Below are positions 57,194 through 57,975 of a DNA stretch of 64,000 nt, piece by piece. The position numbers and the translations under genes are program-made. Positions within the stretch are counted from its first letter, which is position 1, and each line of letters starts with the position of its first letter. Under the pieces are notes generated by a model. It worked only from the letters and a program-made list of their open reading frames with translations, had not been told where the DNA came from and searched no databases. The DNA lies in contig NZ_MWQY01000006.1 in assembly GCF_002087085.1 (NCBI RefSeq), positions 124,001-188,000 of the forward strand. The letters are read 5' to 3'. The stretch is from Marispirochaeta aestuarii. GTDB lineage: Bacteria; Spirochaetota; Spirochaetia; JC444; Marispirochaetaceae.

Positions 57194-57210
57194 CCTCTTC
57201 ACCGAAGAGG
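57194..57210 (-). other. Hairpin in the groES leader
   Basis: CCTCTTC-acc-GAAGAGG, a perfect 7-bp stem with a 3-nt loop, 32 nt before the groES ATG. No T-run follows, so it is not a terminator. It may affect message stability or translation. Confidence 0.5.
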
Positions 57211-57234
57211 GCTCAGTAATTCTATATGTCTTAA

Positions 57235-57251
57235 AGCAAAAAACGTGCCAA
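57235..57251 (-). promoter_or_regulatory. Sigma-54-type promoter motif upstream of groESL
   Basis: The minus strand reads TTGGCACG-tttt-TTGCT, an exact fit to the sigma-54 consensus TTGGCACG-n4-TTGCW with the correct 10-nt GG-to-GC spacing. Start expected near 57224, giving a leader of about 60 nt. A suboptimal sigma-70 alternative overlaps (TTGGCA, 19 nt, TATAGA). TGCC/GGCA within it could instead form a weak ferritin terminator. Confidence 0.55.
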
Positions 57252-57396
57252 CACGGCATTTTTTTATAATTACCTGCATAATATATAATTATTCGTCGTC
57301 TTTGTCATCAGTTTTTAAAGAAAATATCCCGGGACAGGACAATGTGACACAGGTACGTTTTTTTTCCGTAAAAAGTGTATCAAATTTACTCAGCAG

Positions 57397-57438: not shown

Positions 57439-57975
57439 TTAGTCTTCCGCTCCCAGAGGTCCGACAAAACTGGTGGGAATAGTCACAGCCCGGGATTTCA
57501 GTTCCCTGTCGACCATATACAGCCCCGGTCCCTTTGCGCCGGCGGAGATCTCCATCCGGGTAATCATGTCCGAAGCATTCTTTTCTTCCTCGACCTGTTC
57601 GCTCACGTACCACTGCAGGAAGATCCGGCTGGCATAATCCTTCTCATCCTCCGCCAGGGCCACCAGTGAATGTATCGAAGCGGTAACCTTCTTTTCGTGT
57701 TCCAGTGTCTCCTTGAGAACATCCATGGGAGAATCCCAGTTCTCCTGAGGTTTATCAATGGCAAGAAGTACGGGTTTGCTGCCCTGGTCGAAGAGGTACT
57801 CGTAAATTTTCATTGCATGGAACATCTCTTCGTGATACTGAACCATGAACCAGTGGGCAAACCCCTCGAGTCCCTGATCATTGCACCAGGCGGACATAGC
57901 CATGTACAGATACCCCGAGTACATCTCCTTGTTTATCTGCTCATTCAAAGCCTTGCTCATTTTTTCCGAAATCAT
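57439..57975 (-). CDS. ftnA: Bacterial non-haem ferritin
   Basis: 178 residues, FtnA type. Ferroxidase ligands fall at the same numbers as in E. coli FtnA: Glu17, Glu50, His53, Glu94, Gln127, and site C Glu129/Glu130. No haem-binding Met of bacterioferritin is evident. It oxidises and stores iron in a 24-mer in the cytoplasm. RBS AAGGAG. Intergenic element copy B lies 100-160 nt upstream. No clear Fur box was found. Confidence 0.95.
   Translation of the reverse strand: MISEKMSKALNEQINKEMYSGYLYMAMSAWCNDQGLEGFAHWFMVQYHEEMFHAMKIYEYLFDQGSKPVLLAIDKPQENWDSPMDVLKETLEHEKKVTASIHSLVALAEDEKDYASRIFLQWYVSEQVEEEKNASDMITRMEISAGAKGPGLYMVDRELKSRAVTIPTSFVGPLGAED

Follow-up and report, generated by a model that had tools for sequence, protein, structure and literature searches.

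The window, i.e., the whole 64,000-nucleotide stretch of the Marispirochaeta aestuarii genome that was analysed, carries on its minus strand a ferritin gene followed by a groESL operon. The features of this region are collected in Table 1, together with two loci outside the window that share its regulatory elements. The gene order ferritin-groES-groEL is the same in all three Marispirochaeta species (the species of the window, G001 and G002). Among named organisms, Candidatus Marispirochaeta associata stands closest. Each of the three species possesses solo copies of groES and groEL, as is usual in the class Spirochaetia, in addition to the groESL operon. The GroEL protein of the operon forms a separate, deep-branching paralogue, and only the groESL copy of another family member, G003, lies near it, and weakly so; inspection of that copy by eye revealed no sigma-54 site.

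Table 1. Features of the groESL region and of two related loci; positions refer to the window unless a locus number (L) is given.
Feature	Position	Strand	Sequence and basis
groEL, operon copy, 544 aa	55250..56884	-	Open reading frame and orthologues; deep-branching paralogue
groES, operon copy, 88 aa	56896..57162	-	Translation and orthologues
Leader hairpin, approximately +15 to +31	57194..57210	-	CCTCTTC-GGT-GAAGAGG; perfect 7-bp stem
Predicted sigma-54 promoter, -24/-12 boxes	57235..57251	-	TTGGCACGTTTTTTGCT; exact consensus, retained in all three species despite a diverged spacer
Sigma-70-like site, possible basal promoter	57280..57308	-	ATGACA-17-TATATT; 10/12 matches
Proximal enhancer-like site	57335..57351	-	TGTGTCACATTGTCCTG; 10/14 positions; left half-site perfect
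Distal enhancer-like palindrome	57376..57392	-	TGAGTAAATTTGATACA; 11/14 positions
Ferritin gene, upstream neighbour, outside the promoter	57439..57975	-	Pfam Ferritin; order kept in genus
Sigma-54 site of hsp20	L233:4936-4952	+	Ranks among the genome's best sigma-54 sites
hsp20	L233:4997-5452	
RpoD/RpoS-like sigma-factor gene, protein P0001	L352:1195-2064	-	Also at L145, L146 and approximately 44 other loci

The putative promoter of the operon has the form TTGGCACG-N4-TTGCT. With the GC placed at -12, transcription would start at approximately position 57224, which predicts a leader of 62 nt up to the ATG of groES. An earlier note on this DNA had described an exact sigma-54 consensus with correct spacing at about this distance from groES, and its coordinates, strand and sequence are all right. 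It had also suggested a scan of other promoters for the same motif: the exact pattern TGGCACGN4TTGC occurs once in the window and five times in the 4.2-Mb genome, the groES copy included. The groES motif scores 20.3 with a sigma-54 matrix whose weights are approximate, and none of 1.1 million simulated intergenic positions reached a score of 15. When one mismatch is allowed, the pattern becomes frequent (56 occurrences in the genome vs 38 for reversed-pattern controls), as would suit a match to the consensus by chance. Such an origin is hardly credible for the groES site, since it is contradicted by the retention of the boxes in three species with diverged spacers, and by the fixed register of an enhancer pair upstream.

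This promoter of groESL is confined to the three species. Its boxes have the sequences TTGGCACGTTTTTTGCT, TTGGCACATAAATTGCT and TTGGCATACTTCTTGCA and lie 72, 72 and 69 nt, respectively, upstream of the groES ATG. Of the specified positions, 10 of 13 are identical in all three, compared to none of the four spacer positions and 22% of the 80 columns upstream. The conservation before groES in close relatives, proposed earlier as a check of the motif, is thus found in the -24 and -12 boxes, and their maintenance while spacer and upstream flank diverged is what one would expect of a sigma-54 promoter under selection.

Upstream of the boxes lie two enhancer-like palindromes of the type TGTGTCA-N3-TGACACA. 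Their distal and proximal members are located 141 and 100 nt from the sigma-54 site in the window, 140 and 99 nt in G002, and 142 and 101 nt in G001, such that the spacing between them is 41 bp in all three species. The summed score of the pair was reached by none of 2000 shuffles in each of the three species. The pair of the window falls in the range of approximately 80-200 nt expected of activator sites, a position that would suit this role. The proximal site matches the palindrome imperfectly, at 9-10 of 14 positions, and a genome search with this site alone gave counts no higher than chance. An alignment had equated the distal site of G001 with the proximal site of the others; measurement from the sigma-54 site ruled this out and gave the fixed register.

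The earlier note had also considered an overlapping, weak sigma-70 promoter. Two of the species, that of the window and G002, do have a sigma-70-like site, but it lies upstream of the motif and does not overlap it. If this site drove the main transcription of groESL, the sigma-54 site would be minor or unused. Its 10 matches of 12 and its presence in G002 speak for this possibility; yet G001 lacks it, while retaining, like the other two species, the sigma-54 boxes and the enhancer pair, and 0.6 such sites are expected by chance per shuffled region. We therefore consider it unlikely as the main promoter, and it may coexist with the sigma-54 promoter as a basal one. Alternatively, control of the operon might be mainly post-transcriptional, exerted on stability or translation by the leader hairpin, which has no other exact copy in the genome; in this case the type of promoter would carry little weight. 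Indeed, the hairpin and its 5' flank show no differences among the three species, in contrast to the upstream region, most of which has diverged. The predicted folds do not hold the ribosome site in the hairpin, no Rfam family matches it, and the enhancer pair would be left unexplained. As the principal mode of control this is very improbable; the hairpin may add a second layer of control to that of the promoter.

The same combination of elements is found at other stress genes of the class. At locus L233, a perfect GTCA-N3-TGAC lies 143 nt upstream of the sigma-54 site of hsp20. Relatives of this gene (loci L298-L327) were gathered as an independent test, and 29 loci had enough upstream sequence. 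All 29 Spirochaetia loci have a sigma-54 site scoring at least 15 close before the gene, and in 26 of them a match of at least 11/14 to TGTGTCA-N3-TGACACA occurs, vs 1% of shuffles. These enhancer-like sites are also paired, 39-45 bp apart, a range that includes the spacing of the groESL pair. Genes for P0001-type sigma factors show a similar layout, with a sigma-54 site in 44 of 47 loci and an enhancer-like site (at least 10/14) upstream in 46 of 47. As a same-class control, the upstream regions of groEL in Spirochaetia were scored with the sigma-54 matrix, and none of 34 reached 10. The hits in hsp20 and sigma-factor loci, together with the clean groEL controls, indicate that the Marispirochaeta groESL is built like a member of a class-wide regulon. 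Judged by these sequence features, groESL most likely belongs to a sigma-54- and enhancer-dependent chaperone regulon; in view of the promoter and enhancer pair shared with hsp20 and the similar layout of the sigma-factor gene, it was most likely recruited into a class-wide stress regulon of older origin.

The P0001-type sigma-factor gene is often divergent from a solo groES. The enhancer pairs seen at some solo groES controls are those of this divergently oriented neighbour. In the direction of solo groES itself there is no strong sigma-54 site, and the solo groES genes display the promoter TTGACC...GTATATT. In the form TTGACC-N-CGTATATT, it precedes solo groES in 55 of 98 Spirochaetia loci (e.g., L144, L145, L146 and L263) and no groEL, and it perhaps represents a special sigma-factor class.

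A second sigma-70-family gene, at L006:1516 (minus strand), has an exact sigma-54 site and no enhancer site, and its product is the better match to the Borrelia RpoS-like protein (39% vs 32%). The two sigma-70-family proteins that were scored against the RpoH model obtained 179 and 149 bits, compared to a cut-off of 323. Outside the spirochaetes, a sigma-54-like site, TTGGTATGTAAATTGCT, occurs 58 nt before groES in a member of Candidatus Auribacterota (L097), possibly an independent case.

As groESL operons are commonly associated with HrcA and its CIRCE operator, the earlier note had singled out the lack of a CIRCE element at this operon. The element is indeed lacking: in the three species of the genus, the best matches before groES deviate at 5-7 of 18 positions. 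Its absence is nonetheless not special to this operon. HrcA was found neither in the genome of the window nor in any of 60 Spirochaetia genomes, with control genomes positive, and among the regions preceding groES and groEL in Spirochaetia none contains CIRCE with at most three mismatches, compared to 52 matching groES loci of other phyla. Since HrcA is missing from all 60 genomes, the lack of CIRCE is a class trait and uninformative for this particular operon.

The genome contains one rpoN gene, with an open frame, and codes for 15 strong sigma-54 activator proteins, such that both the sigma factor and the enhancer-binding proteins for which the earlier note had recommended a search are present. 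In Bradyrhizobium, groESL is under the control of NifA. By analogy, NifA and sigma-54 might drive the operon here and tie the chaperonin to nitrogen fixation, and one activator of the genome does exceed the NifA family cut-off (563 vs 529 bits). However, the upstream regions of groESL in all three species lack the NifA-type site TGT-N10-ACA, and the sites that they do contain match the hsp20 type of spirochaetes. The parallel with Bradyrhizobium and NifA, drawn in the earlier note, is therefore not borne out, and nitrogen-fixation control appears exceedingly improbable.

Strong sigma-54 sites adjoin many of the activator genes of the genome. Several are situated beside activators with a PrpR_N domain (L027:3108, L028:2497, L222:7277, and L014:2613 and 1516), some of them preceding transport genes, and are likely local catabolic switches. 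Another exact site, at L003:1516 (minus strand), is located 42 nt before the gene for a 292-aa protein. Two activators emerge as candidates for the regulon. The first, at L215:6135-7496, is the orthologue of an Rrp2-type activator in two probable Borrelia genomes (G043 and G021), with 57% identity over approximately 450 aa, and the order DNA polymerase III subunit-histidine kinase-activator is common to the L215 locus and these genomes. The second is the NtrX-like protein of L217:6827-8194, whose gene lies close to rpoN in 18 of 20 genomes and whose recognition helix is near-invariant. No conserved activator gene was found next to the hsp20 operons. The hsp20 gene of a probable Borrelia is preceded by a sigma-54-like site (TTGGTATGGTTTTTGCA, L414:5119-5135, plus strand), where the best enhancer-like site is within chance and does not separate the two candidates. 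As the single activator in the Borrelia stretches matches L215 and the rpoN-linked one is L217, we make no choice between them.

Taken together, the site is very probably a working sigma-54 promoter of the second groESL operon, driven by an activator through the paired enhancers. Sigma-54 control of groESL by an enhancer-binding activator, as put forward in the earlier note, is strongly supported by the rpoN gene, the 15 activators, the promoter kept in three species and the paired sites shared with stress genes. In the mechanism that we propose, an AAA+ activator with a Fis-type helix-turn-helix would occupy the two palindromes, four helical turns apart. Looping of the DNA would then allow it to remodel the sigma-54 RNA polymerase at the -24 and -12 boxes, such that the promoter opens and groESL is induced on demand. 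The solo groES and groEL genes, transcribed from other promoters, would provide the housekeeping supply of chaperonin, with the inducible GroESL on top. The activator would itself be controlled by a signal, presumably protein-folding stress, given that its proposed targets are hsp20, a chaperonin and a sigma factor. The promoter, the enhancer pair, their conservation and shared layout, rpoN and the activator genes are read directly from the sequence; the binding of the activator, its activating role, its identity for all targets and the stress signal are inferred.

The regulation of chaperones in spirochaetes without HrcA and apparently without sigma-32 is poorly known. According to a review of Leptospira sigma factors, sigma-32 is absent from that genus, and sigma-54 is tied to nitrogen and environmental survival (PMC12655853). 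The present analysis suggests a concrete enhancer code, i.e., pairs of TGTGTCA-N3-TGACACA, 39-45 bp apart, combined with -24/-12 boxes, at hsp20, the sigma-factor gene and the spare groESL of one genus. A literature search that covered few subscription papers turned up no account of spirochaetes with hsp20 or groESL in a sigma-54 regulon, and its novelty is thus unproven. A broader and distinctly tentative proposal, which we hold to be possible but somewhat doubtful, is that the Spirochaetia, lacking HrcA and apparently sigma-32, handle protein-folding stress by means of a class-wide activator, paired enhancers and sigma-54. In almost all members such a system would drive hsp20 together with an alternative sigma factor, and in Marispirochaeta also the spare groESL; the Rrp2-RpoN-RpoS pathway of Borrelia would be a reduced offshoot of it.

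Compared with known systems, the arrangement resembles HrcA/CIRCE control in that both concern groESL operons, and differs from it in that HrcA and CIRCE are absent in Marispirochaeta and the other Spirochaetia members examined. The closest parallel among chaperonin operons is the RpoN-dependent groESL3 of Bradyrhizobium (PMC4842269). In both cases, an extra groESL operon is expressed, or predicted to be, from a -24/-12 promoter alongside other chaperonin genes; in the spirochaete, paired palindromes of the hsp20 type replace TGT-N10-ACA. Sigma-54-dependent chaperone genes (groES and grpE) have also been described in Bacteroidota and Planctomycetota (PMC12316311). They share with the present case the placement of chaperones under sigma-54, whereas the accessible part of that survey names those phyla, and not Spirochaetia, for this cluster and describes no paired enhancer code. 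In Marispirochaeta, unlike in the Borrelia pathway, groESL and hsp20 are among the predicted targets and have paired enhancers, and the Rrp2 orthologue is here only a candidate activator. The Rrp2-RpoN-RpoS cascade of Borrelia (PMC12655853) is a spirochaete sigma-54 pathway that feeds an alternative sigma factor. Like Borrelia, Marispirochaeta possesses an Rrp2-like activator and an RpoS-like sigma-factor gene with a sigma-54 site. The enhancer code described above also hints that the RpoN-RpoS cascade of Borrelia goes back to an older context of stress response.
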